Of a stretch of 36,393 bases of DNA, positions 21,076 to 32,850 are shown in pieces. The first letter of the stretch is position 1. The number at the start of each line of letters is the position of its first letter. The position numbers and the translations under genes were made by a program. Below the pieces are notes generated by a model. It did no database searches. It worked only from the letters and a program-made list of their open reading frames with translations, and was not told the DNA's origin. The stretch lies in NCBI GenBank assembly GCA_021808405.1, contig JAKBBQ010000007.1:1-36393 (forward strand), in the 5' to 3' direction. This DNA comes from Pseudomonadota bacterium (GTDB lineage Bacteria; Pseudomonadota; Gammaproteobacteria; Burkholderiales; Burkholderiaceae_C).

Positions 21076-21624
21076 TCAGCCCGATTGCAGGATGCAGGCG
21101 CGGTAGACGGCCTGCGTGGTCGCCGAACCCGCGGCCGGGTTGGCGCTGGCGCTGGCCTGCACCCACACGTTGTAGAACACCGCGATGTAGCCCGGGTTGC
21201 ACAGGGTGTCGTCGACCACCCCGGTCGGCGTGACCAGTTGCAGCACCTGGAAGCTGGTGCGGCCGCTGCCGTTGGCCAGGGTCACGTTGCCGGACTGGCA
21301 CAGGTTCTGGCTCGCGCAGGTGTTCCAGAAACCGGCCGACGCGGGCTGCACGTTGGTGGTCGTCGCGACGTACCACGCGGGCGGCGAGGCCTGGTATTCC
21401 AGCAGGCCGTAGGTCCCGATGCTCTGCGCGATGTTCGAGCGCAGCGTCGCCATCGCCCGGTTGGCCGCGTCGCGCGCCTGCGCGCGCCACAGGTAGGAGC
21501 TGGAGAAGGTGTCGTTCTGCAGCGTGCGCCCGTAGATCGCCAGCAGCGCCAGCGGCAGGATGATCAGGAACAGCGCCACCACGACCAGCAGCACCGCGCC
21601 GCGCTGGTTTCGTCCGGACTTCAT
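21076..21624 (-). CDS. pilX: Minor pilin PilX
   Basis: A 182-residue minor pilin-like protein. Seen: a short basic leader MKSGRNQRG, then the hydrophobic helix AVLLVVVALFLIILPLALLAI. The processing site would be Gly9/Ala10. Glu at mature position 5 is absent, as is usual for PilX. The body has Cys pairs (CASQNLC and a C-terminal C) that could form disulfides. ATG 21624 overlaps the pilW stop by 4 nt (ATGA), indicating coupled translation. PilX works with PilV, PilW and PilY1 in the priming complex at the pilus tip. Confidence 0.88.
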   Translation of the reverse strand: MKSGRNQRGAVLLVVVALFLIILPLALLAIYGRTLQNDTFSSSYLWRAQARDAANRAMATLRSNIAQSIGTYGLLEYQASPPAWYVATTTNVQPASAGFWNTCASQNLCQSGNVTLANGSGRTSFQVLQLVTPTGVVDDTLCNPGYIAVFYNVWVQASASANPAAGSATTQAVYRACILQSG

Positions 21625-22835
21625 GATTGGTTCCACGCGACGTTGCGCAGATAGACCACCTGGCTGAACACCTGGTACTGGTAGGCGTTGCCGGCAGGCG
21701 GGGTGTAGGTCTCGTCGAGCACGCTCAGGCTCGCCGGGTTGCCGGTGCGCCCGGCGGTGTTGGGCCGGCGCAGCACGTAGGCGAACTCGACCGCGCCGAC
21801 CTGGTTCTGCTGGTTGTTTCCGACAATGCTCGACGAGCTGCCCGACCACGGAACGAAGGCCTGCAGCTGGCCGTTGACCAGCGGCGCGAACAACGCGTGC
21901 AGCAGCACCACGTTGTGCGCCACCGTGGTGTCGCTGACCACGTGGCCGAGCGCGTCGACGACGGTGCGCCGCAGATCGGGAGTGCCCGGCGACGCGGCAT
22001 CCGGCTGGATGCTGTAGGTCACCGTCAGCGGGCCGTTGGGGCCCGCGGTGGAGCCGAAGTCCTCGACGTAGGCCTGCGCCAGGTCGGCGGTGCTCAGCGC
22101 CGGGGCGAGCGCGGGGTTGGCCAGGCTGGACACGCCGTTGAATCCGTTCGGGGGGTTGATCAGCGAGGTGTTGGCACCGGAGTTGTGGACGATGTTGCCG
22201 GCCCCGCCGCCCCCGGTCTGCGTGACCTGGAAGCGGATGCACACGCTGCGCGACGGCAGCACGACCATGTCGATGTCGCCGACGTGGAAGCCGGCGGTGT
22301 TGGCGACGAACAGCGAGGCGTTGCTCAGCGTGCCGTTGGTGGCCTTGACCACCCGCACGCCGCCCGCGGCGGCCGGGCTCGACAACCCGAAGTCGGCTGC
22401 GTAGGCCACGGTGATCGCGTCGGTTGCGGCGCCGCCGGGGTTGGCGTAGCCGAAGCTCAGCCCGGTCGTCCCCGGCAGCGTGCCGCCGCTGGTCTGCACG
22501 ATGCTGGAGACCGGCCACTGGTTGGTCATCTGGCTGGGCGCCAGCTGGCTGTTGTAGGTCAGCAGCCGAGCGCAGCGGCTTTGTCCCGACGGACCGTAGA
22601 GCATGAACCCGGCGCGCGACAGGTCGTCGGCGAGCAGGGTCATGCCGATGCGCGCGTTGTTCTGCAGCTGCGCGGAGTCGCTGGCGCGGATGCCGTTGGA
22701 CTCCAGGCTGCCGAGGGACAGGAAGATCACCAGCCCGAGCATGGTCGCCAGCGCCAGCGCGACCAGCAGCTCCACCAGGGTGAAGCCCCGCGCGGGATGC
22801 GGGCCCCGCGCTCCGGGCGTCGGCAGGCGTTTCAT
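21621..22835 (-). CDS. pilW: Minor pilin PilW
   Basis: A 404-residue prepilin-like protein. Seen: leader MKRLPTPGARGPHPARG followed by the type IV signature FTLVELLVALALATMLGLVIF with Glu5, then a long globular part including NNARIGMTLLADDLSRAGFM, a segment typical of PilW (early helix followed by a D/E-rich turn). ATG 22835 lies 1 nt after the pilV stop codon. In the pilus it acts with PilV, PilX and PilY1 as the initiating tip subcomplex. Length is within the family's range of roughly 250-400 residues, at the long end. Confidence 0.9.
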   Translation of the reverse strand: MKRLPTPGARGPHPARGFTLVELLVALALATMLGLVIFLSLGSLESNGIRASDSAQLQNNARIGMTLLADDLSRAGFMLYGPSGQSRCARLLTYNSQLAPSQMTNQWPVSSIVQTSGGTLPGTTGLSFGYANPGGAATDAITVAYAADFGLSSPAAAGGVRVVKATNGTLSNASLFVANTAGFHVGDIDMVVLPSRSVCIRFQVTQTGGGGAGNIVHNSGANTSLINPPNGFNGVSSLANPALAPALSTADLAQAYVEDFGSTAGPNGPLTVTYSIQPDAASPGTPDLRRTVVDALGHVVSDTTVAHNVVLLHALFAPLVNGQLQAFVPWSGSSSSIVGNNQQNQVGAVEFAYVLRRPNTAGRTGNPASLSVLDETYTPPAGNAYQYQVFSQVVYLRNVAWNQS

Positions 22836-22836
22836 G

Positions 22837-23340
22837 TCAGAACCCGTCCTGCAGGATGAAGGTGTGCCGGATGCTGCCGCCGAAGGCCGAGCGCACGGTG
22901 ATCACGGCGTCGATCTCGCACGGCGAGCCGGCGCTGCAGGCGCCGTGGCTGGCGCTGCCCGAGGGGATGGTCGACACCGCCAGCGAAACCAGGTCGGGGT
23001 AGGCCGCCACCTGGGTCTTCCACCAGTCGAGCACCGGGGCGACTCCGCTCGCGCTGCTCGTCGGGTTGCTGGCGCTCAGGCTCAGGCCGTCGAGCGAGCC
23101 CAGCACCGAGGAGTTGCCCTCCACGGTGGCGAGCAGGCTTTGCGCGGTGGTCGTCGCGGCGAAGCTGCGCAACGCCTGCGCGTCGGCGATGTAGGACTGG
23201 TTGATCAGCAGCACCAGGCCGCTGGCGGCGGCCAGGAACAGCAGCATCGCCACCAGCACCTCGAGCAGCGTGAGTCCGCGCTGCGAGCGGGCCGGCACGC
23301 GGGCCGGCATGCGGGGCGCAAGGATCGGCGCGGTCTTCAT
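22837..23340 (-). CDS. pilV: Minor pilin PilV
   Basis: A 167-residue prepilin-like protein. Seen: leader MKTAPILAPRMPARVPARSQRG, then LTLLEVLVAMLLFLAAASGLVLLI with Glu5, matching the PilV-type signature. A 25-residue hydrophobic helix is followed by a globular tail with a probable disulfide (GACSAGSPC). ATG 23340 overlaps the stop of the upstream fimT-like gene by 4 nt. Part of the minor-pilin priming set. Confidence 0.9.
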   Translation of the reverse strand: MKTAPILAPRMPARVPARSQRGLTLLEVLVAMLLFLAAASGLVLLINQSYIADAQALRSFAATTTAQSLLATVEGNSSVLGSLDGLSLSASNPTSSASGVAPVLDWWKTQVAAYPDLVSLAVSTIPSGSASHGACSAGSPCEIDAVITVRSAFGGSIRHTFILQDGF

Positions 23341-23825
23341 GACGGGTTGGTCGAGACCAGGCCGCCGGAGCTCAGCGCAATCGTCCAGCTGCTGCCGCCG
23401 CCGCTGATCACGGCCGGCGCGATCGGCGAACTCGCAGCCGAGGCCGGGCTGCAACTCAGCCCGTTGACGCCCTGGGTGCACAGCGACACCGAGCCGTCGC
23501 CCAGGAACGACACGGACTTGGCCAGCGGCTGGCAACTCACGCCGTGGCCGGCCGCCGAGCCGCTGCTCAGCAGTTGCGTGCCGCTCGCGGTGGCGACCGT
23601 GTAGCCGCATCCGCTGGGGGTGAAGGTCACCAGGTTGGAGGTGTTCAGCGCGTACTGCCGGGCGTACTGCAGCGCGTCAGCCATGCCGCTGGCCACCGAC
23701 TTGGCGTCCATGGCGGCGACCTGCGGACGCAGGTCGGGCAGCGCGACCAGCAGCACGATGGCGGCGATCGCGAGCACGACCATCAGCTCGACCATGGTGA
23801 ATCCGGCGGCCCTTGCGAGTTTCAT
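23337..23825 (-). CDS. fimT: FimT/GspH-like pseudopilin
   Basis: A 162-residue prepilin. Seen: a seven-residue leader MKLARAAG ending in the processing Gly, then FTMVELMVVLAIAAIVLLVALP with Glu5. The globular part contains SVASGMADALQYARQYALNTSN, the helix-and-strand pattern typical of GspH/FimT (where it reads ARSEAIKRN). ATG 23825 gives the standard short leader; an upstream ATG at 23879 would add an unlikely extension. It is the first gene of the pilin operon. FimT-type pilins can bind DNA in some species; that role is not shown here. Confidence 0.85.
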   Translation of the reverse strand: MKLARAAGFTMVELMVVLAIAAIVLLVALPDLRPQVAAMDAKSVASGMADALQYARQYALNTSNLVTFTPSGCGYTVATASGTQLLSSGSAAGHGVSCQPLAKSVSFLGDGSVSLCTQGVNGLSCSPASAASSPIAPAVISGGGSSWTIALSSGGLVSTNPS

Positions 23826-23989
23826 GGGAACCCTTGCGCATCGAAGGCGATGACTGCACGCGAATGCTGCGGCAACCACCCGTCACGCAACAAGGGTTTC
23901 CCGGCGAAAGGTAGCAACCGGCCGACGAGCGGTAGGCGCGGAGCGCCGGCCGCGGCAGCCGGTGCGTTCGCCCGCGCGCGGCGACGCGG

Positions 23990-25258
23990 TCAGTGGGCCG
24001 CGCCGGCGCCGCGCTGCATCGAGGCGATCAGCTCGGAGGCGGCGCAGGCGCGCGCCACCGCGGGCCCCTGCCCGACCTCGCAGCCCTCCCAGCGCAGGAA
24101 CTGGGCGTCGGCGTCGCAAGCCACCCCCTCGGCGATGGTGGTCGCGCCCAGGGTCTGCGCCAGCGCGATCAGCGAGCGCGCCATCGCGGCGCGCTGCGGC
24201 TCCACGGCCACGCCCTCGACGAACAGCCGCGGCAGCTTCAGCGATTCGAAGGCCAGACTGCTCAGGTAGGGCAGCGCGATGGTCGCGGCGCCGAAGTCGC
24301 GGAACACGAAGCCGATGCGCGCCTGGCGCAGCCGGGTCAGCGCGTCGACCAGGCTGGACTCGGCGCGCAGCACCACCGACTGGCCGAGCGGCAGGTCGAG
24401 CTGCAGGCCCGGCGCGGCGGCATCGCCGATCACCTGCAACAGCTCGCGCAGGTACTGCGGGTCGTCGAGGAACTCGCCGATCAGCGGCAGGCTCACGCGC
24501 AAGCCGCTGCCGAATTCGCGCTGCCACTGGCGGGCCCACGAAACGCCCTGCGCGAGCAGCCAGCGCATGGTCTGCAGCCGAGCCGGGCCGGGGCCCAGCC
24601 GGGCGGCGACCTGCTCGGCCGACAGCAGGCCGCGCCGGGTGTTCCAGCCGGCGATCAGGTCGACTCCGTGCAGTCGCAGCGAATCCAGCCGCAGCTGGGG
24701 CTGCGCCTGCAGCACGATGCGCCCGGCGGCGACGGCTTCGCCCAGGTCCTCGGCCAGCTCGACATCGCGCTCCTGCGCGGCTTCGCGCCCGCCTTCGAGC
24801 GTCCGGCCGCCGCGCAGCGAGCGCGCATGGCGGTAGCCGCGCAACGCGGCGATCACCGCCGAATGCAGGCGCTGGGCGGTGATCTCGGTCTTCAGCAGGT
24901 AGCCGTTGATCTCGTAGTCGACGATCACCTCGCGCTCGGGGGCCATGCCGGGCTGGCCGGTGCGCAGGATGATCTGCATGTCGCGGTTGCCCAGCTGCCG
25001 GCGCACGAACTCGACCAGTCGCATTCCGGCTTCGTCGGTTTCCATCACGACGTCGAGCAGCACCAGCGCGATGTCGGGGTGGCGGCCCAGCAGTTCGCGC
25101 GCCTGCGCGGCCGAGGCCGCGCTCAGCAGCTCCACCGCGGCGCCCTCGAAGTTCAGGCCGCGCAGGATCAGCCGCGACACCTCGTGCACCGCCGGCTCGT
25201 CGTCGACCAGCAGCACCTTCCACTGCGCGGGCGCGGCCGCGATGGTGTCACGCTGCAT
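23990..25258 (-). CDS. Response regulator with degenerate EAL domain
   Basis: A 422-residue output protein of the adjacent histidine kinase. Seen: receiver domain at residues 13-140 with acidic pair Asp19/Asp20, phospho-acceptor Asp69 (VLLDVV) and Lys123 (LLKTEI), of the subtype with ILRTGQPGMAPEREVIVDYEINGY; then an EAL-fold domain at about 170-415. The EAL signature is lost: GVDLIAGW (198-205) replaces the EALLRW-type motif, FRDFGAAT replaces DDFGTG, and LQLDLP replaces the usual LEITE-like strand, although IAEGV and GCEVGQG remain. It probably cannot hydrolyse cyclic-di-GMP but might bind it or another partner. The start overlaps the kinase gene by 11 nt, so the two are co-translated. Confidence 0.88.
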   Translation of the reverse strand: MQRDTIAAAPAQWKVLLVDDEPAVHEVSRLILRGLNFEGAAVELLSAASAAQARELLGRHPDIALVLLDVVMETDEAGMRLVEFVRRQLGNRDMQIILRTGQPGMAPEREVIVDYEINGYLLKTEITAQRLHSAVIAALRGYRHARSLRGGRTLEGGREAAQERDVELAEDLGEAVAAGRIVLQAQPQLRLDSLRLHGVDLIAGWNTRRGLLSAEQVAARLGPGPARLQTMRWLLAQGVSWARQWQREFGSGLRVSLPLIGEFLDDPQYLRELLQVIGDAAAPGLQLDLPLGQSVVLRAESSLVDALTRLRQARIGFVFRDFGAATIALPYLSSLAFESLKLPRLFVEGVAVEPQRAAMARSLIALAQTLGATTIAEGVACDADAQFLRWEGCEVGQGPAVARACAASELIASMQRGAGAAH

Positions 25259-28022
25259 CGTCGCCCCGTCCCGCGCCCAGCCGGCGCAGCGCGGCGCCGG
25301 GCCGCGGCGAATGCCTGGCCTGGCGGGGAATGCGCAGCACGAAATGGGCGCCCTGCCACGCCGGCTCGGCCAGCTCGACGGTGCCGCCGAGCTGGCGGGT
25401 CACCACCTGGTGGACGATGTACAGGCCCAGCCCGCTGCCCCCGGCCATGCGCTGGGTGGTGAAAAAGGGTTCGAACACCCTGCCGCGCAGACCGGGATCG
25501 ATTCCGGGCCCGCTATCGCTGTAGTGCAGTTCCACGCTGTCCTCGCCGACCCGCGCCTGGATGTCGATCTGCCCGCCGCCGGCATGCACGAAGGCATGCT
25601 GCAGGGAGTTGACCACCAGGTTGCTGATCACCTGTTCCAGCGACACAGCATAGCTGTGGAGTTCGATCCCCGCGGGCATGTCCAGCCGCACCTCGACCCG
25701 CGCCGCCTGCAGCCGCGGCGCGAGTTCGCGCAGCACCTGCTCGATCTGCGGGCGCAGCTCGAAGCGCCGGCGCGGCTCGGTGATCTGGTCGACGCCGAGC
25801 TGCTTGAAGTTGCGCACCAGCTGGCCGATGCGCTGGGCATTCGACTGCAGCAGTCGCGCCGACTCGGCGGCGTCGCGCAGGTACTGCGACTGCGCCTGGG
25901 CATCGAAGCCGCCGCGGTCGACCTGCTGCTGCGCGTCGCGGGTGCGGTCGCCGAGGAACGATGCCGTGCTGATGGCGATTCCCGCAGGGGTGTTGATCTC
26001 GTGGGCGACGCCGGCGACCAGGGCGCCGAGGGCGGCGAGTTTTTCCGACTCGACCAGGTGGCGGCGCGCGCGGTCGAGGTCGTCCATCGACTCCAGCAGG
26101 TCGCGCTCGGCCTGTTCGGTGCCTTCGTGGAACAGCACGATCCACCACACCGCCAGCGACACCAGCACCAGGGTCGCCAGGTACAGGCGCCACAGCACGT
26201 TGACCAGCCCGGGGCTGGCGGCAGCCAGGTCCAGCCCCATCAGCCGGTAGGTGAGCACGAAGGCCGCGCCCAGCAGCGCCGCGGCGCCCGCGAACAGCCC
26301 GAGAAAGCGCCCGACGCGGCGCAGCACATGCGGCTGGAAGGCGGGCAGCGGCTCGGCCGCGGCTGGCGCGGCAGGCGGCGCGGCAGCCAGCGCGGCAGGT
26401 GGCGCAGCGGCCAGCGCCTGCGGCTGCTTGCACAGGTCATGGCAATGCAGGTCGAGCCCGCAGCACAGCGAACAGATCGGCCCGCGGTAGAACGGGCAGT
26501 CGGTCATGTCGGGGGCCTCGTACTCGCGCTCGCAGATGCAGCACTGCACCAGTTGCGCGGGGTCGCGATGGCGGTAGCGCAGGTCGGGTCGCGCCAGGTA
26601 GTAGCGGCCGCGGGTGGCGTAGCCGATGGCCACCGCGCTGCCGAAGGCGGTGGCCAGCGTGATGTAGCCGAAGAAGGCCGCCGCCACGCGTCCGAACAAG
26701 CCGGCGTAGGCCAGCACCCCGACCAGCGTGGCCAGCGCCATGGCCCCGCAACCCACCGGGTTGATGTTGTACAGGTGGGCGCGCTTGAACTCGATGTACG
26801 GCGGGCTGATCCCGCTGCGCTTGAGCACCACCAGATCGGCCACCAGCGCGCCGATCCAGGCGATCGCGGTGGTGGCGTAGACCGACAGCACCAGTTCCAG
26901 GGTCGCGAAAATCCCCAGCAACGCCAGCAGCAGCGCGACCACCACGTTGAACACCAGCCAGACCACCCGTCCGGGATGGAAATGGGCGAGCCGCACGAAG
27001 CAGTTCGACCAGGCCAGCGAGCCGCTGTAGGCGTTGGTGACATTGATCTTGAGTTGCGAGACGCTGACGAACACCACCGCCAGCCCCAGCGCCAGCGCCG
27101 GCGACACATCCATGGCCTGCCAGGCGTGGAAGTACATCCGCACCGGCTCGGTGGCCTGCGCCGGCGTGCTGCCCATGCGCAGCGCCAGCACCGCCAGCAG
27201 CCCGCCGGCGAGGATCTTGGCGCCGCCGATGACAATCCAGCCGGGTCCCGCCGCGACCATCGCGGCCCACCACGAGCGCTGGTTGGAGGCCGAGCGCGCA
27301 GGCAGGAAGCGCAGGTAGTCGGCCTGCTCGCCGATCTGCGCGATGAGGGCGAACAGCACCCCCGAGGCGGCGCCGAAGGTCAGCAGGTCGAAGCCGCTGC
27401 CTCCGCTGGCCCGCCCGTGGAAGTCCACCCAGGCGCGCAGCGCCTGCGGGTCCCGGGCGACGATGAACAGCAGCGGCAGCAGCATCATCAGCAGCCACAG
27501 CGGCTGCGTCCAGGCCTGCAGGCGGTTGATCCAGGTCACGCCGAAGAACACGATGGGCAGGATCACCAGCGAGCAGATCAGGTAGCCCAGCGCCAGGTTG
27601 AGGCCGAAGCCCAGTTGCAGCGCCTGCGCCCAGATGGCGGTCTCGATGGCGAAAAAGATCAGGGTGAACGCGGCGTAGATCAGCGAGGTCAGCGTGGAGC
27701 CGATGTAGCCGAAGCCGGCACCGCGGGTCAGCAGGTCGATGTCGACATTGGACGCAGCGCACCAGTAGGCGATCGGCTGGCTGACCAGGAAGATCAGCAG
27801 CGACACGGCGAGCACCGCGGCCAGCGCGCTGCCGAAGCCGTAGCTCAGCGTGATGTTGGCTCCGATGGCCTCCAGTCCGAGGAAGGAAATCCCGCCGAGC
27901 GCGGTGTTGGCGACCACCGCCGGGCTCCACCTGCGGTAGGAACTCGCCGCGTAGCGCAGCGCATAGTCCTCCAGCGACTCGTTGGCCACCCAGGACTGGT
28001 ACTGTCTGCGGCTGCGGCTCAT
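25248..28022 (-). CDS. NCS1-transporter/histidine kinase fusion sensor
   Basis: A 924-residue membrane sensor. Domains seen: residues 1-475, a full NCS1 (cytosine/purine/hydantoin permease) transporter with about twelve hydrophobic segments, including ALGGISFLGLEAIGANITLS and TRGAGFGYIGSTLTSL; 494-531, a cluster of nine cysteines and two histidines (CCICERE, MTDCPFYRGPICSLCC, HCHDLC) able to bind metal; 537-560, an Ala/Pro linker; about 571-592 and 606-630, two more membrane helices; 655-740, a dimerisation domain with His674 in VAGVAHEINTPAG; 790-905, the ATPase with N-box NLVVNSLQHAF, DSGPGID and GGSGLGLYIV. ATG 28022 follows GAAGG. The layout is analogous to CbrA, in which a sodium-solute symporter is fused to a kinase. 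A sensor or carrier of a nucleobase-like or other nitrogen compound is inferred. Confidence 0.9.
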   Translation of the reverse strand: MSRSRRQYQSWVANESLEDYALRYAASSYRRWSPAVVANTALGGISFLGLEAIGANITLSYGFGSALAAVLAVSLLIFLVSQPIAYWCAASNVDIDLLTRGAGFGYIGSTLTSLIYAAFTLIFFAIETAIWAQALQLGFGLNLALGYLICSLVILPIVFFGVTWINRLQAWTQPLWLLMMLLPLLFIVARDPQALRAWVDFHGRASGGSGFDLLTFGAASGVLFALIAQIGEQADYLRFLPARSASNQRSWWAAMVAAGPGWIVIGGAKILAGGLLAVLALRMGSTPAQATEPVRMYFHAWQAMDVSPALALGLAVVFVSVSQLKINVTNAYSGSLAWSNCFVRLAHFHPGRVVWLVFNVVVALLLALLGIFATLELVLSVYATTAIAWIGALVADLVVLKRSGISPPYIEFKRAHLYNINPVGCGAMALATLVGVLAYAGLFGRVAAAFFGYITLATAFGSAVAIGYATRGRYYLARPDLRYRHRDPAQLVQCCICEREYEAPDMTDCPFYRGPICSLCCGLDLHCHDLCKQPQALAAAPPAALAAAPPAAPAAAEPLPAFQPHVLRRVGRFLGLFAGAAALLGAAFVLTYRLMGLDLAAASPGLVNVLWRLYLATLVLVSLAVWWIVLFHEGTEQAERDLLESMDDLDRARRHLVESEKLAALGALVAGVAHEINTPAGIAISTASFLGDRTRDAQQQVDRGGFDAQAQSQYLRDAAESARLLQSNAQRIGQLVRNFKQLGVDQITEPRRRFELRPQIEQVLRELAPRLQAARVEVRLDMPAGIELHSYAVSLEQVISNLVVNSLQHAFVHAGGGQIDIQARVGEDSVELHYSDSGPGIDPGLRGRVFEPFFTTQRMAGGSGLGLYIVHQVVTRQLGGTVELAEPAWQGAHFVLRIPRQARHSPRPGAALRRLGAGRGDDAA

Positions 28023-28195: not shown

Positions 28196-28293
28196 CGGCG
28201 AAACTCAATACGGTGGCGTCGGCGCTGGGCCGGCAGCTGCCCAAGCGCTGGCACGGCGCGCCACGACCCAGGCGTGGCGATGGAGACCAAGGC

Positions 28294-29439
28294 ATGGACG
28301 GTACGCACTTGCCCGACCCGGAGCAGTCGTCGCTGGTCGCCCTTGCGCGCTCGATCCATGCCGCCAGCATCGACCCGCAGGCCTGGCCGGCGGCGCTCGA
28401 GGGCATGCGGCAGCGGCTGGGCGCCAGCGTGGTCACCATCGGCCACCACGACTTCGGCAGCGGCGCCGAATCGGCGCTGTTCGAGGCGCCGCTGGACACC
28501 GACCTGTGCGTGCAGATGGCCGCCTTCTCGGCGCGCAACCCCTGGTTCCTGTCGAGCGAGGACTATGTCGCCGGGCGGGTGGTGGCCGGCGACGACGTGA
28601 TCAGCCCGCGCGACCTGCGGCGCACCGACTTCTACCGGGATTTCCTGCAGCCCCGCGGGCTGTTGCACCGCCTGTGCGGGGTGGTCAGCCGCGACCGCCA
28701 GGGCATGCATTTCCTGTGCGCGCTGCGTTCGGAGTGCGAACGGGGCTTCGGCGAGGGGGAGCGCAGCGACCTGCAGCAGATGCTGGCGCATGTCGCGCTG
28801 TCGCTGGAAAGCCAATGGCGCTGGCAGGAGGCGGCCGACATGTCGCACGCCCTGCTGGAACTGAGCGACGGCGAGTCGCAGGCGCTGATGCTGGTCACCG
28901 CGGAGGCACGGCTGGTGCACCGCAACCGCGTCGCCGGGCAACTGCTCCAAGGCCCCGGCGGGCTGGCCCTCGAGGACCACACGCTGCGCGCCGGCAACCC
29001 GGCCGAGCAGCGTCTGCTGCGCGAGGCGATCTCCCGCGCCTGCGGTGACCCCGCGTCGGCCGACCAGCCGCAGGTGCTGAGCCTGGCCGGCGCTGCCGGC
29101 GGGGCGCCGCTGGTGGTGGTGGTGCGGCGCACCGGGCCGGTGTTCCAGCGCGGCGCCAGCGGCCGCCGCCCGCTGGCGCTGCTGTCGGTGCGCTGCGGCA
29201 GCGCGGCCCACGACGCCGCGCGCTGCGTGTTCGCCCGCCACTACGAGCTGACGCTGGCGCAGGCTCGGGTCAGCTCGCTGATCTACGGCGGGCGCTCGCT
29301 GGCGGCGATCGCCGCGTCGCTGCACGTGTCGGAGAACACCGTGCGCAGCCACCTCAAGCAGATCTTCCAGAAGACCGGCACCCACAGCCAGATGGACCTG
29401 GTGCACCTGCACGCCCGCATCTGCCCCGGCTGGACCTGA
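28294..29439 (+). CDS. LuxR family transcriptional regulator
   Basis: A 381-residue regulator. Seen: an N-terminal sensory part of about 300 residues without recognised cofactor motifs (it has the LARSIHAASIDPQAWPAALE start seen in a group of proteobacterial LuxR proteins) and a C-terminal helix-turn-helix ELTLAQARVSSLIYGGRSL through ASLHVSENTVRSHLKQIFQK. The ATG at 28294 is preceded by AAGG and GGAG; a GTG at 28213 could extend it but lies only about 10 nt after the predicted transcription start. It is divergent from the NCS1-kinase gene, so it may regulate that operon or itself. The ligand is unknown; there is no receiver domain and no acyl-homoserine-lactone domain that I can recognise. 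Confidence 0.85.
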   Translation: MDGTHLPDPEQSSLVALARSIHAASIDPQAWPAALEGMRQRLGASVVTIGHHDFGSGAESALFEAPLDTDLCVQMAAFSARNPWFLSSEDYVAGRVVAGDDVISPRDLRRTDFYRDFLQPRGLLHRLCGVVSRDRQGMHFLCALRSECERGFGEGERSDLQQMLAHVALSLESQWRWQEAADMSHALLELSDGESQALMLVTAEARLVHRNRVAGQLLQGPGGLALEDHTLRAGNPAEQRLLREAISRACGDPASADQPQVLSLAGAAGGAPLVVVVRRTGPVFQRGASGRRPLALLSVRCGSAAHDAARCVFARHYELTLAQARVSSLIYGGRSLAAIAASLHVSENTVRSHLKQIFQKTGTHSQMDLVHLHARICPGWT

Positions 29440-29494: not shown

Positions 29495-29604
29495 GCCGCG
29501 CTGCCCCATCGCGGCCGCCCGGCTGCCTCGGGCGCGGGATTCGCCCGCGCCGGCGGCGTCCTACGATGCCCCGACCTCGTTGCGCATTCGCGGAGGACGC
29601 CGCC

Positions 29605-29985
29605 ATGACCCTGCTGTCGATCGCTGTCTTCGCCGTGCTCGGCGCTTTCGCGCGCTACGGACAGACCCTGTTCGTGCAGGGCGTGCTGGGTCGCCAGTTC
29701 CCCTTCGCCACACTGTCGATCAACGTGCTGGGATCGTTCCTGATGGGGCTGCTGTTCTTCCTCACGCTGGAGCGGCTGTCGATCTCCCCGGCGCTGCGCA
29801 CGGGCATCCTGACCGGCGGACTCGGCGCCTACACCACCTTCTCCACCTTCTCCCTCGAATCGCTGAGCCTGTTCGAGCAGGGCGAGCCGGCGAAGGCCCT
29901 GCTCTACATCGTGGGCTCGTGCGTGCTGGGCATCAGCGCCGCGGCGCTGGGCGCGTACCTGGCCCGCGGCATCGGGGGGGCATGA
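29605..29985 (+). CDS. crcB: Fluoride ion channel CrcB/Fluc
   Basis: A 126-residue inner-membrane protein with four hydrophobic helices. It exports fluoride as a dual-topology dimer. Seen: LGAFARYGQTLFV, SINVLGSFLMGLLFF with the conserved Asn and Gly, and the family signature GGLGAYTTFSTFSLE. GGAGGA sits at normal spacing before ATG 29605. A hairpin GGCGCGGG/CCCGCGCC is seen about 50 nt upstream, but the conserved elements of the fluoride riboswitch were not found. The stop codon overlaps the start of the DUF190 gene, so the two are co-translated. Confidence 0.93.
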   Translation: MTLLSIAVFAVLGAFARYGQTLFVQGVLGRQFPFATLSINVLGSFLMGLLFFLTLERLSISPALRTGILTGGLGAYTTFSTFSLESLSLFEQGEPAKALLYIVGSCVLGISAAALGAYLARGIGGA

Positions 29986-30299
29986 TGAGCGACGTGACCA
30001 TGGTGCGCATCTACCTGCGCGAAGGCGACCACCGCGAGCACCACAACCTGGTGCGCGAGCTGTTCGCGCTGCTGCACGGCGAACTCGGCGTGCGCGGAAT
30101 CACCGTCTACCGCGGCGTCGCGGGCTACGGCAGTCGCGGCGAGGCGCATGCCGACGACCTGCTGCGACTGGGGGTGCACCTGCCGCTGGTGGTCGAGTTC
30201 TTCGACTCCCCCGAGGTGGTGCGGGACGCCCTGCCGCGGCTGGCGCCGCTGCTGCCCAGCGGCCATATCGTCTGCTGGGACGCGCGCTGCCCCGATTGA
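29982..30299 (+). CDS. DUF190 family protein, CrcB partner
   Basis: A 105-residue small soluble protein of the DUF190 family, frequently encoded next to crcB. Seen: KVLRIYL-like start (VRIYLREGD), a helix HNLVRELFALLHGELGVRGITVYRG, and a second half LPLVVEFFDSPEVVRDALPRL with the ferredoxin-like PII-type pattern. ATG 29982 overlaps crcB by 4 nt (ATGA); ATG 29985 is the alternative. Its molecular role is not established; a regulatory part in fluoride export is inferred from linkage. Confidence 0.88.
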   Translation: MMSDVTMVRIYLREGDHREHHNLVRELFALLHGELGVRGITVYRGVAGYGSRGEAHADDLLRLGVHLPLVVEFFDSPEVVRDALPRLAPLLPSGHIVCWDARCPD

Positions 30300-30501: not shown

Positions 30502-30789
30502 ATGGCCCTGTACGAATACGCCTGCCGCACCCACGGTGCGTTCGAGATCCTGCGCCGCCTCGGCGAGGCCCCGCCCGACACCGCCTGCCCGGTCTGCGGC
30601 GGCGCCGCGCCGCGGGTGATTTCGGCTCCGGCACTCGTGACCGGGCGCCGCGCCGCGGTGTTCGCGGCGATCGACGGCGCCGAGAAGAGCCGCCACGAAC
30701 CCGAGGTGGTGACCTCGCTGCCGCGGTCCGGGGCGCCCAGGCGGCAGGTGCGCATGACCCCCGAACTGTGGAAGCTACCCAGGCCCTGA
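30502..30789 (+). CDS. FmdB-like zinc ribbon protein, CxxH variant
   Basis: A 95-residue small protein of the FmdB regulatory family found in formamidase operons. Seen: MALYEYACRTHGAFE, in which the first metal pair reads CRTH rather than CxxC, then TACPVCGGAAPRVISAP with the second pair CxxC, so the metal site would be Cys3-His. A basic tail follows. GGAGGA precedes ATG 30502. It is the first gene of the group leading to fmdA, 163 nt upstream of it. FmdB-type proteins are thought to regulate amidase expression or handle metal; neither is proven. Confidence 0.82.
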   Translation: MALYEYACRTHGAFEILRRLGEAPPDTACPVCGGAAPRVISAPALVTGRRAAVFAAIDGAEKSRHEPEVVTSLPRSGAPRRQVRMTPELWKLPRP

Positions 30790-30952: not shown

Positions 30953-32209
30953 ATGCCCAAGAACCTGTTTCCTCTCGACAACAGCAAGAAGTTCAAGGAC
31001 CAGAAAATCGTCGGCCACAACCGCTGGCACCCCGACATCCCGGCTGCGGCGCACATCAAGCCCGGCGACACCTTCCGTGCCGACTGCCGCGAGTGGTTCG
31101 ACGGCGCGATCAAGAACGACGACTCGGCCGAGGACATGCGCCATGCCCCGCTGGCCGGGGTGCACGTGCTGTCCGGACCCTTCCACGTCGAGGGAGCCGA
31201 GCCGGGCGACCTGCTGGTGGTCGACATCCTGGAAATCGACTCCTGCGACCAGGAGGACTCGGGGCCGTTCTCCGGCATGGGCTGGGGCTACACGGGGGTG
31301 TTCGCCAACAAGAACGGCGGGGGCTTCCTGACCGAGCGCTTCCCCGACGCCTACAAGGTGATCTGGGACTTCAACGGCGACGTGGCGACCTCGCGCCACA
31401 TCCCCGAAGTGTCCTACGTGGGGATCCACCACCCGGGGCTGATGGGCACCGCGCCGTCGGCCGAGCTGCTGGCCAAGTGGACCGCGCGTGAAAAGGCGCT
31501 GATCGCCACCGACCCGATGCGCGTACCGCCGCTGGCGCTGCCTCCGCTGCCCGACAGCGCGATCCTCGGGTCGCTGAGCGGAGCCGAGTTCGACCGCGTG
31601 GCGCGCGAGGCCGCGCGCACCGCGCCGCCGCGGGAGAACGGCGGCAACCAGGACATCAAGAACCTGACCGCCGGCAGCCGGATCTTCTATCCGGTGTTCG
31701 TCCCCGGCGCCAAGCTGTCCTTCGGCGACCTGCACTTCTCCCAGGGCGACGGCGAGATCACCTTCTGCGGGGCGATCGAGATGGGCGGCTTCATGGACCT
31801 GCACGTCGACATCATCAAGGGCGGAATGGCCAAGTACGGCATCCGCGAGAACGCCATGTTCATGCCGGGCCTGCGCGATCCGCAGTACTCGGAATGGCTG
31901 GCGTTCTCCGGCGTGTCGGTGCACCCGAACGGCAAGCAGCACTACCTCGATTCGTGGCTGGCCTACCAGAACGCCTGCAACCACGCGATCGACTACCTGA
32001 TGAAATTCGGCTACACCGACATCCAGGCCTACATGATCCTGGGAACGGCTCCGGTCGAAGGTCGCCTGTCGGGAGTGGTCGACATCCCCAACGCCTGCTC
32101 GACCATCTACATCCCGCGCTCGATCTTCGAGTTCGACGTCCGGCCGACCGCCAAGGGGGCGCTGCACCAGGTCAAGCAGGGGCTGCAGGTACCGCGCTCG
32201 GCGAACTGA
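30953..32209 (+). CDS. fmdA: Formamidase/acetamidase FmdA
   Basis: A 418-residue cytoplasmic amidase of the FmdA/AmdA family, which hydrolyses formamide (and in some members acetamide) to ammonia and the acid. Seen: family stretches HNRWHPDIPAAAHIKPGD, DSGPFSGMGWGYTGVF, PGLMGTAPS, YPVFVPGAKLSFGDLHF, SQGDGEITFCGAIE and MILGTAPVEGRLSGVVDIPN. Length and start agree with the Methylophilus-type enzyme. GAGGT lies 6 nt before ATG 30953. It is followed by an AmiS/UreI channel gene and preceded and followed by FmdB-like genes: a complete formamide uptake and hydrolysis set, probably providing nitrogen. Confidence 0.93.
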   Translation: MPKNLFPLDNSKKFKDQKIVGHNRWHPDIPAAAHIKPGDTFRADCREWFDGAIKNDDSAEDMRHAPLAGVHVLSGPFHVEGAEPGDLLVVDILEIDSCDQEDSGPFSGMGWGYTGVFANKNGGGFLTERFPDAYKVIWDFNGDVATSRHIPEVSYVGIHHPGLMGTAPSAELLAKWTAREKALIATDPMRVPPLALPPLPDSAILGSLSGAEFDRVAREAARTAPPRENGGNQDIKNLTAGSRIFYPVFVPGAKLSFGDLHFSQGDGEITFCGAIEMGGFMDLHVDIIKGGMAKYGIRENAMFMPGLRDPQYSEWLAFSGVSVHPNGKQHYLDSWLAYQNACNHAIDYLMKFGYTDIQAYMILGTAPVEGRLSGVVDIPNACSTIYIPRSIFEFDVRPTAKGALHQVKQGLQVPRSAN

Positions 32210-32337: not shown

Positions 32338-32850
32338 ATGCTGGGTTTGGTCTTGCTCTACGTGGGCGCCGTGCTGTGCCTGAACGGCCTGTGGCTGATC
32401 GGGCAGATCGGCGACAACGAAATCGCGGTGATCGATATCTTCGTCGGGGGCATCACCCTGCTGGTGTCGCTGTACCTGGCCTTCGGCCCGGGATCCAACG
32501 ACGCCAACATCAAGGCCGCCGCGCTGACCCTGCTGTTCACCTTCACCTACCTGTGGGTCGCGATCAACCGCTACAACGGAGCCGACGGACGCGGGCTGGG
32601 CTGGTTCTGCCTGTTCGTGGCGATCACCGCGGTTCCGGTGTCGGTGTCGACCCTGCAGGGCGCGTCGACGCTGTGGGGCACGTGGTTCGGGCTGTGCTGG
32701 GCGGCATGGGCGTTCCTGTGGCTGCTGTTCTTCATCCTGCTGGTGATGCAAAAGCCCATTGGCCGCTTCGTGGGCATCGTCACCGTGCTGGAGGGCATCC
32801 TCACCGGCTGGCTGCCAGGCTACCTGCTGCTGACCGGGGCGCTGCACTGA
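32338..32850 (+). CDS. amiS: AmiS/UreI family amide or urea channel
   Basis: A 170-residue inner-membrane protein with about six hydrophobic segments, of the AmiS/UreI family of short-chain amide and urea channels. Seen: MLGLVLLYVGAVLCLNGLWLIG, a start typical of the family, then the polar loop GSNDANIKAAALTLLFTFTYLWVAINR and a C-terminal PIGRFVGIVTVLEGILTGWLPGYLLL. ATG 32338 follows GAGGGGAG. In the fmd group it would pass formamide or another short amide into the cell for FmdA. Confidence 0.92.
   Translation: MLGLVLLYVGAVLCLNGLWLIGQIGDNEIAVIDIFVGGITLLVSLYLAFGPGSNDANIKAAALTLLFTFTYLWVAINRYNGADGRGLGWFCLFVAITAVPVSVSTLQGASTLWGTWFGLCWAAWAFLWLLFFILLVMQKPIGRFVGIVTVLEGILTGWLPGYLLLTGALH

Follow-up and report, generated by a model that had tools for sequence, protein, structure and literature searches.

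What might a bacterium sense with a protein in which a transporter-like domain is read straight on into a histidine kinase? The question is raised by a stretch of 36,393 nucleotides from a Pseudomonadota bacterium (GenBank assembly GCA_021808405.1, contig JAKBBQ010000007.1, positions 1 to 36,393; here called the window), where a single open frame encodes a permease domain related to the NCS1 family, a module of conserved cysteines, two further helices and a kinase core. Here, we compared this protein with its relatives in other genomes, and we consider it probable that it is a transporter-derived membrane receptor for short-chain amides or urea, in which a structural module couples the receptor to its output. 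If this is true, the protein closes a gap in our picture of how bacteria detect formamide, urea and amides of this kind at their membrane, many bacteria would use it to recognise such compounds as a source of nitrogen, and a second route from a LeuT-fold transporter to a kinase input would stand next to that of the SLC5/STAC proteins such as CbrA. The parts of the chain are as follows.

25248..28022, minus strand: permease-Cys module-histidine kinase, 924 amino acids (aa); single open frame of 924 codons and a stop, conserved as one chain in relatives
26583..28022, minus strand: NCS1-related permease domain, residues 1-480 (AlphaFold2 model, Foldseek, profile match)
26427..26555, minus strand: eight-Cys module, residues 490-532, with C494, C497, C509, C517, C520, C521, C527 and C531 (conservation, model)
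26103..26330, minus strand: a second set of two hydrophobic helices, plus the linker that leads into the kinase, residues about 565-640 (identified visually; outside the structure models)
25308..26090, minus strand: kinase core, residues about 645-905, H-box HEINTP with H674 (PF02518, invariant boxes)

The layout is not rare

Relatives were collected by scanning 84,980 genomes with an alignment of the permease and Cys module. This gave at least 578 confirmed relatives, and the best 80 of them, ranked by similarity to the query including the Cys module, were kept; Proteobacteria, Cyanobacteria, Polyangium and Sulfurimonas are represented among them. Nor is the layout rare. Among 299 genomes sampled from the phylum, 40 (the window's own genome being one of them) had the sensor, as had 12 of 244 genomes of the phylum of a cyanobacterial relative. 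Residue counts given below over 95 fused rows leave out L083 and L086, which are cut by contig ends, keep the short-frame L036 and L063 as fused, and include both L005 and L025, which are one contig.

Genes for amide and urea use accompany the sensor

In the window, genes for FmdB, FmdA and AmiS/UreI lie 2.5-4.8 kb from the kinase gene, a context that was missing from an earlier reading of this DNA made from its letters alone (the sequence-only reading). The neighbours of the kinase gene are listed here.

23990..25258, minus strand: REC-EAL response regulator (PF00072 and PF00563), with an 11-nt overlap between its start and the kinase stop
28213..29439, plus strand: LuxR-type (GerE) transcription factor, divergent from the kinase, exact start uncertain (PF00196)
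29566..29985, plus strand: CrcB-like protein (PF02537)
29970..30299, plus strand: DUF190 protein (PF02641)
30502..30789, plus strand: FmdB-type zinc-ribbon protein (PF09723; 40% to a plasmid FmdB over 67 aa)
30953..32209, plus strand: FmdA formamidase/acetamidase (PF03069, 573.7 bits)
32338..32850, plus strand: AmiS/UreI amide/urea channel (PF02293, 203.6 bits)

The LuxR-kinase-REC-EAL trio is present at all 14 loci of the window's clade, with one LuxR gene cut by a contig end. FmdA and AmiS are found nearby at 11 of the 14, in differing arrangements (10 of 13 once L217 and L025, which are one contig, are counted together), and at the remaining three (L026, L029, L215) the upstream side is cut by a contig end. 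The linkage extends beyond this clade. When a match had to reach 40% identity and cover half of the marker or more, genes for FmdA, a Urt-type urea/amide transporter, an AmiE-type amidase, AmiS or urease were found near 70 of the 80 homologue loci (urt 55, FmdA 38, AmiS 9, AmiE-type amidase 6, urease 2), and the same markers in none of 20 control regions of 13.6 kb from five family-bearing genomes. None of 25 loci matching PF02133 carried a marker either, but at only about 4 kb each they are a weak control.

As a side observation, the CrcB and DUF190 genes (29566-30299) separate the LuxR-type gene from the formamidase genes; a CrcB gene, which we take to belong to the fluoride channel family, is present at 9 of the 14 clade loci (L217 and L025 again being one contig). 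Beyond the REC-EAL gene there are type IV pilus-type genes (21621-22835 and 22837-23879, with PilW and N-methylation motif by Pfam) and, by eye, neighbouring pilin-like frames.

The permease domain is a probable sister of the NCS1 transporters

The sequence-only reading took the first part of the chain for an NCS1 permease, which held for the fold and for the profile match but not for Pfam membership or the sodium site. The first ~480 residues gave no Pfam family above threshold in the window protein or in the 19 members scanned singly, and Transp_cyt_pur (PF02133) was matched neither by the window protein, nor by any of the 19 members, nor in the window's own genome; an NCBIfam scan, phmmer and a profile search against PDB sequences likewise returned no match for the permease part. 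Since these sequence searches were empty, structure comparison was used. An AlphaFold2 model of residues 1-540, built from 59 sequences (pLDDT 86.7, pTM 0.87), has a predicted LeuT-type fold nearest to CodB and Mhp1, which took Foldseek ranks 1-5 ahead of other LeuT-fold families (CodB: E 1.2e-10, TM by target 0.79-0.81; Mhp1: TM 0.68-0.69). In hhalign, 26 NCS1 proteins were aligned over 414 columns at probability 99.5 with the 59 rows alone, and over 449 columns at probability 99.8 and 17% identity when three stand-alone relatives were added, E-values against a single target being uncalibrated. The 26 consisted of CodB, a C-terminally cut AllW and 24 genome matches of PF02133, that is, 24 of 25 fetched loci (L163 was without a frame), with frames chosen by hydrophobicity.

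Residues were mapped onto CodB from the 449-column alignment, which at 17% identity is ungapped between T278 and the N280/Y285 anchors. R216 and Y285, which the accessible text on CodB gives as constant across diverse sequences (PMC9379551), correspond to R238 and Y332, both invariant in 95 of 95 fused rows. The equivalents of N280, W108 and Q105 are N327 in transmembrane helix 8 (TM8), F123 and T120, and within the predicted pocket Q229, E232, K325, N327, T329 and N330 are all invariant in the fused rows. The Na+ ligands of the Na2 site, T278 and T279, are replaced by an invariant K325 and I326, so that the Na2 side chains are absent and Na+ coupling is unlikely. Judged from these residues, the pocket is conserved and yet not that of a standard sodium-coupled transporter. 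Because neither the Pfam threshold is reached nor the sodium site retained, we class the permease as an NCS1-related sister family rather than a member.

Some relatives of the permease have no kinase. Two cyanobacterial stand-alone proteins, L098 (542 aa) and L104 (537 aa), end right after the Cys module and lie just upstream of fmdA, the L104 genome also encoding a HEINTP version of the sensor, apparently cut by a contig end; an Acinetobacter lwoffii stand-alone permease lies beside a urease operon. With a Rhodococcus pair, these give five stand-alone permeases for comparison. All 95 fused rows have E51 and F47 in TM1, and all five stand-alones have other residues there (F, F, F, L, F at the position of E51). 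F47 aligns with F33 of CodB, whose ring may stack on cytosine in the available account (PMC9379551). This contrast may be a trace of how a transporter turned into a receptor; as it sets 95 rows with many near copies against five proteins from two clades (L098, L104 and the A. lwoffii protein; the Rhodococcus pair), it may reflect only one or two events.

These residues bear directly on the alternative that survives best, itself a variant of the receptor reading: a true transceptor, which would transport the amide or urea and signal from its transport cycle, as accessible text proposes for CbrA (PMC13022988, PMC7096432). Strict conservation of the predicted pocket residues agrees with it, as do the CbrA precedent and the stand-alone proteins beside formamidase or urease, which look like working transporters. 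Against this, the Lys-Ile pair speaks for a chain that is not Na+-coupled (although the stand-alones also have K or R at the position of K325), E51 and F47 separate the fused proteins from the stand-alone ones, and other uptake proteins are often at hand, namely AmiS, which is encoded in the window and near the sensor at 4 of the 6 sister-clade loci, and Urt, at 55 of the 80 loci. On balance we regard a transceptor as unlikely, though worth keeping in mind.

Two further stand-alone sister permeases, L172 and L112 (51% identical to each other), are without the Cys module and lie beside amidase- or nitrilase-like genes; L172 has in addition, nearby, a protein that shares 28% identity with a urea-type binding protein, and the L112 permease gave no PF02133 match.

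Neighbouring genes favour short-chain amides as ligands

The usual substrates of NCS1 proteins are nucleobases, hydantoins and allantoin, and these were the ligands put forward by the sequence-only reading. The neighbourhood agrees better with formamide, urea or short-chain amides. The sensor could answer to another small nitrogen compound (a ureide, nucleobase, hydantoin or ammonium), or to nitrogen status, and co-regulate the amide genes; among the Rhodococcus relatives, one is indeed annotated as an allantoin permease and one has hydantoinase genes next to it. Yet all six annotated plasmid regions with a fused homologue hold urt, formamidase or urease genes, partly with FmdB, amidase or AmiS, and because of such neighbour genes we rank allantoin and nucleobase sensing below amides and judge this whole alternative improbable.

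In these plasmid regions the response regulator following the kinase is assigned to the LuxR family by name in one record, and the other regulators, except that of L109, are similar to it or to its neighbour. The Klebsiella plasmid region contains in addition a creatininase family protein and further ABC genes. Klebsiella accounts for 342 of 530 plasmid records with a match; in the one examined, L110, the protein is of hybrid length and its gene adjoins a urt cluster. A further copy is on pSymB of Sinorhizobium meliloti 1021, near 1.622 Mb, with urt-type genes in the vicinity. The Klebsiella urea ABC transporter cluster (UTS) is discussed in a 2026 preprint, and a term search of its available part did not find "histidine kinase", "two-component" or "sensor" (PMC13060141).

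The eight-Cys module is probably structural

The sequence-only reading described nine cysteines and a hinge peculiar to the joint between permease and kinase, and both points had to be revised. Eight cysteines (494, 497, 509, 517, 520, 521, 527 and 531) are invariant in the 19 aligned proteins and in 95 of 95 fused rows, while C495 is a cysteine in only 51 of them. The motif C-x2-C ... C ... C-x2-CC ... C-x3-C occurs in 80 of 80 kept scan loci, a count biased by a ranking on the whole query including the module, the scan patterns themselves lying in the permease; all eight are also present in 30 fetched loci of the phylum survey (best matches, the window among them). The module also ends the stand-alone L098 and L104 and precedes GGDEF-EAL domains in Sulfurimonas, and it is thus not restricted to permease-kinase joints.

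In the model, the module has a predicted treble-clef-like order, with a CxxC knuckle, then strands, then a helix that begins at CSLCC. Treble-clef fingers are usually structural. A Foldseek search with the module gave no significant structural match: the 50 rows shown included many RING, FYVE, PHD and ZZ entries, none with E <0.5. Pfam matches to CRIPT and Zn_ribbon_11 were sub-threshold, and profile matches to C2H2 zinc fingers were rejected as repeats of the short CxxC stretch. The strict invariance of the eight cysteines and the treble-clef-like model favour, without proving it, a structural zinc module, and the module is probably of this kind, with two zinc ions. The A. lwoffii stand-alone permease retains C494, C497, C517 and C520 without the other four, a pattern which, though it comes from one protein, suggests two metal sites, an inner one (494, 497, 517, 520) and a second one (509, 521, 527, 531).

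A metal or redox signal might instead enter through the module and gate or replace ligand sensing, as eight invariant cysteines between permease and kinase, and the loss of four of them in the A. lwoffii protein, could indicate. This we find a shade less probable still than the sensing of another nitrogen compound: amide or urea catabolic or uptake genes lie near 70 of the 80 loci, the two kinase-less permeases L098 and L104 keep all eight cysteines, the modelled type is usually structural, and the Foldseek search offered nothing significant in its favour.

A conserved chain with varied outputs

The order permease, Cys module, kinase is found in a single frame in 19 aligned proteins (the window protein and 18 relatives), near-full-length best matches stand in one open frame in 60 genomes (own and relatives), and the independent genome scan gave frames of at least 866 aa at 74 of the 80 kept loci. 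The six shorter ones are L083 and L086 (cut by contig ends), the stand-alone L098 and L104, and L036 and L063 (early stop). In the phylum of a cyanobacterial relative (244 genomes), 13 of 13 match rows lie in frames of 963-1072 aa. The 924-residue chain is real and conserved: an assembly or frameshift artefact fusing two genes, for which nothing was found, is practically negligible beside a frame conserved across relatives, scan loci and the 299-genome phylum sample, where open frames of at least 890 aa hold 42 of 45 sensor matches. The sequence-only reading, in proposing one chain with a permease fused to a kinase through a Cys module, has been borne out in this respect; a frameshift, unconserved cysteines and a decayed pocket were the ways in which it saw itself failing, and instead the frame is conserved, eight cysteines are kept and the fused rows do not vary at the predicted pocket residues.

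The kinase core it described also stands, apart from the phospho-acceptor domain as a Pfam match. In the window protein HATPase_c (PF02518) scored 80.9 bits against a cut-off of 26.4, HisKA (PF00512) stayed below its cut-off (19.3 against 26.9 bits), and Transp_cyt_pur, the other domain named for that search, did not appear. H674, N805, D836/G838/G840 (DxGxG) and G862/G864 (GxGLGL) are invariant in 19 of 19 aligned proteins, and the chain has the marks of a sensor kinase, namely HATPase_c with N, G1 and G2 boxes and a phospho-acceptor His. A Pfam scan of the window protein at E up to 10 returned only HATPase_c, HATPase_c_2 and HisKA, and no SSF or STAC domain.

Behind the same sensor, different outputs are found. 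Long hybrid-type kinases, called by length, are present at 53 of 80 loci, usually with a LuxR-type regulator as companion, which is next door at 47 of 80. HEINTP kinases occur in the window's clade and in the cyanobacterium L044, HELRNP kinases in Alphaproteobacteria and HEINNP kinases in cyanobacteria. In Sulfurimonas (L073, L090, L102) GGDEF-EAL domains replace the kinase, with PAS in two of the three, and the same input may there drive a cyclic di-GMP enzyme. These labels were assigned by script, the H-box pattern being empty in 38 of 99 rows, with length then deciding on the label hybrid; Pfam confirmed the outputs of six fused loci and the window.

On a tree of the sensor part (81 of 102 rows, 21 near copies having been dropped before building) the HEINTP label needs at least two changes. 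The window's clade is sister to the HELRNP Alphaproteobacteria (support 100/99), which have FmdA at 6 of 6 loci and AmiS at 4 of 6. The core of the window kinase shares 41-42% identity with kinases from outside the family, but at most 31% with family kinases other than those of its own clade and L044. From the changes on the tree and the higher identity to outside kinases, it appears most likely that the kinase was exchanged while sensor and neighbours stayed. Together with the natural stand-alone permeases, the swapped outputs would offer a direct test of what makes a transporter a receptor. More tentatively, we suggest a wider picture, a widespread NCS1-type receptor domain for the smallest amides (formamide, urea) in which the Na+ site became an invariant Lys and TM1 gained the Glu E51. 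With the eight-Cys two-metal module at its end in all fused rows examined, this domain would have been combined with hybrid kinases, with several plain kinases and with GGDEF-EAL outputs across Proteobacteria, Cyanobacteria, Myxococcota and Campylobacterota.

A proposed route from amide to gene expression

In the proposed mechanism, the permease domain would bind a short-chain amide in its counterpart of the CodB and Mhp1 pocket, formamide being the first candidate and urea or acetamide the alternatives. The amide-bound permease would alternate or close, moving the Cys module and the helix pair, and this change would pass through the presumably cytoplasmic, probably zinc-filled module and the two helices to the HEINTP kinase. 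The kinase would then phosphorylate the REC-EAL regulator encoded with it, and this regulator would in turn switch on FmdA, FmdB and AmiS, perhaps jointly with the LuxR-type protein of the divergent gene.

The E of the EAL motif and the DD motif have catalytic roles in phosphodiesterases. The REC domain of the partner is well conserved, and the EAL catalytic residues are degenerate in 15 of 15 sequences: the REC-EAL protein of the window has DLI for EAL and RDFG for DDFG and so lacks these marks of an EAL phosphodiesterase, the first D of DD is absent in all 15, and the E of EAL is present in several relatives. As these catalytic residues are lost, the EAL part probably acts by binding. REC relatives of 54% and 48% adjoin the outside kinases L017 and L019, which resemble the window kinase.

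For an amide/urea receptor speaks the fact that the sensor keeps its gene neighbourhood while the kinases change. Several points weigh against it. The output step is obscure given the degenerate EAL domain, and the neighbours could be controlled without amide binding by the permease, for example in response to nitrogen status. Subfamilies may also have different ligands, given that the sensor occurs in three contexts (formamidase, Urt, urease). Moreover, 10 of the 80 loci are without an amide or urea marker; L026, L029, L039 and L102 are shorter than 9 kb, but L032, L033, L035, L062, L073 and L090 lack a marker despite 11-14 kb, as does L215 (17 kb), whose upstream side is cut.

Comparison with known systems

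In open-access full text, among the matches listed, neither an NCS1-type sensor kinase nor this architecture was described, in agreement with the sequence-only reading, which knew of no characterised protein of this layout; SLC5/STAC kinases were found there. The sensor genes lie within or beside the Urt and FmdDEF-FmdA urea and amide clusters. A urtABCDE operon with LuxR-family two-component genes has been reported, with a hybrid kinase in a figure legend, and the accessible part of that paper describes neither a permease domain nor a Cys module for them (PMC13296017). A term search in the available text of a review on formamide did not find "two-component" or "sensor" (PMC10781810).

The 5TMR/S-component sensor kinases, according to accessible text, are also receptor kinases whose membrane domain has the fold of a transporter part (PMC11109136). 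They differ in their six-helix S-component core fold. To our knowledge they have no Cys module.

With CodB and Mhp1 the window protein shares the predicted fold, a collinear profile match and the equivalents of R216, Y285 and the TM8 residue N280. It differs from them in its 17% identity, the lack of a PF02133 match, the Lys-Ile pair in place of the Na+ threonines, and the added Cys module and output domains. Closest in layout are CbrA, CrbS and RpuS, in which, in the text available, a secondary-transporter domain likewise precedes a histidine kinase in one chain and a linker domain connects the two (PMC13022988, PMC5715377, PMC9100948). Those proteins combine an SLC5 domain with a STAC four-helix bundle in a context of histidine, acetate or pyruvate, whereas the window protein combines an NCS1-type domain with an eight-Cys module and two helices in a context of amides and urea.

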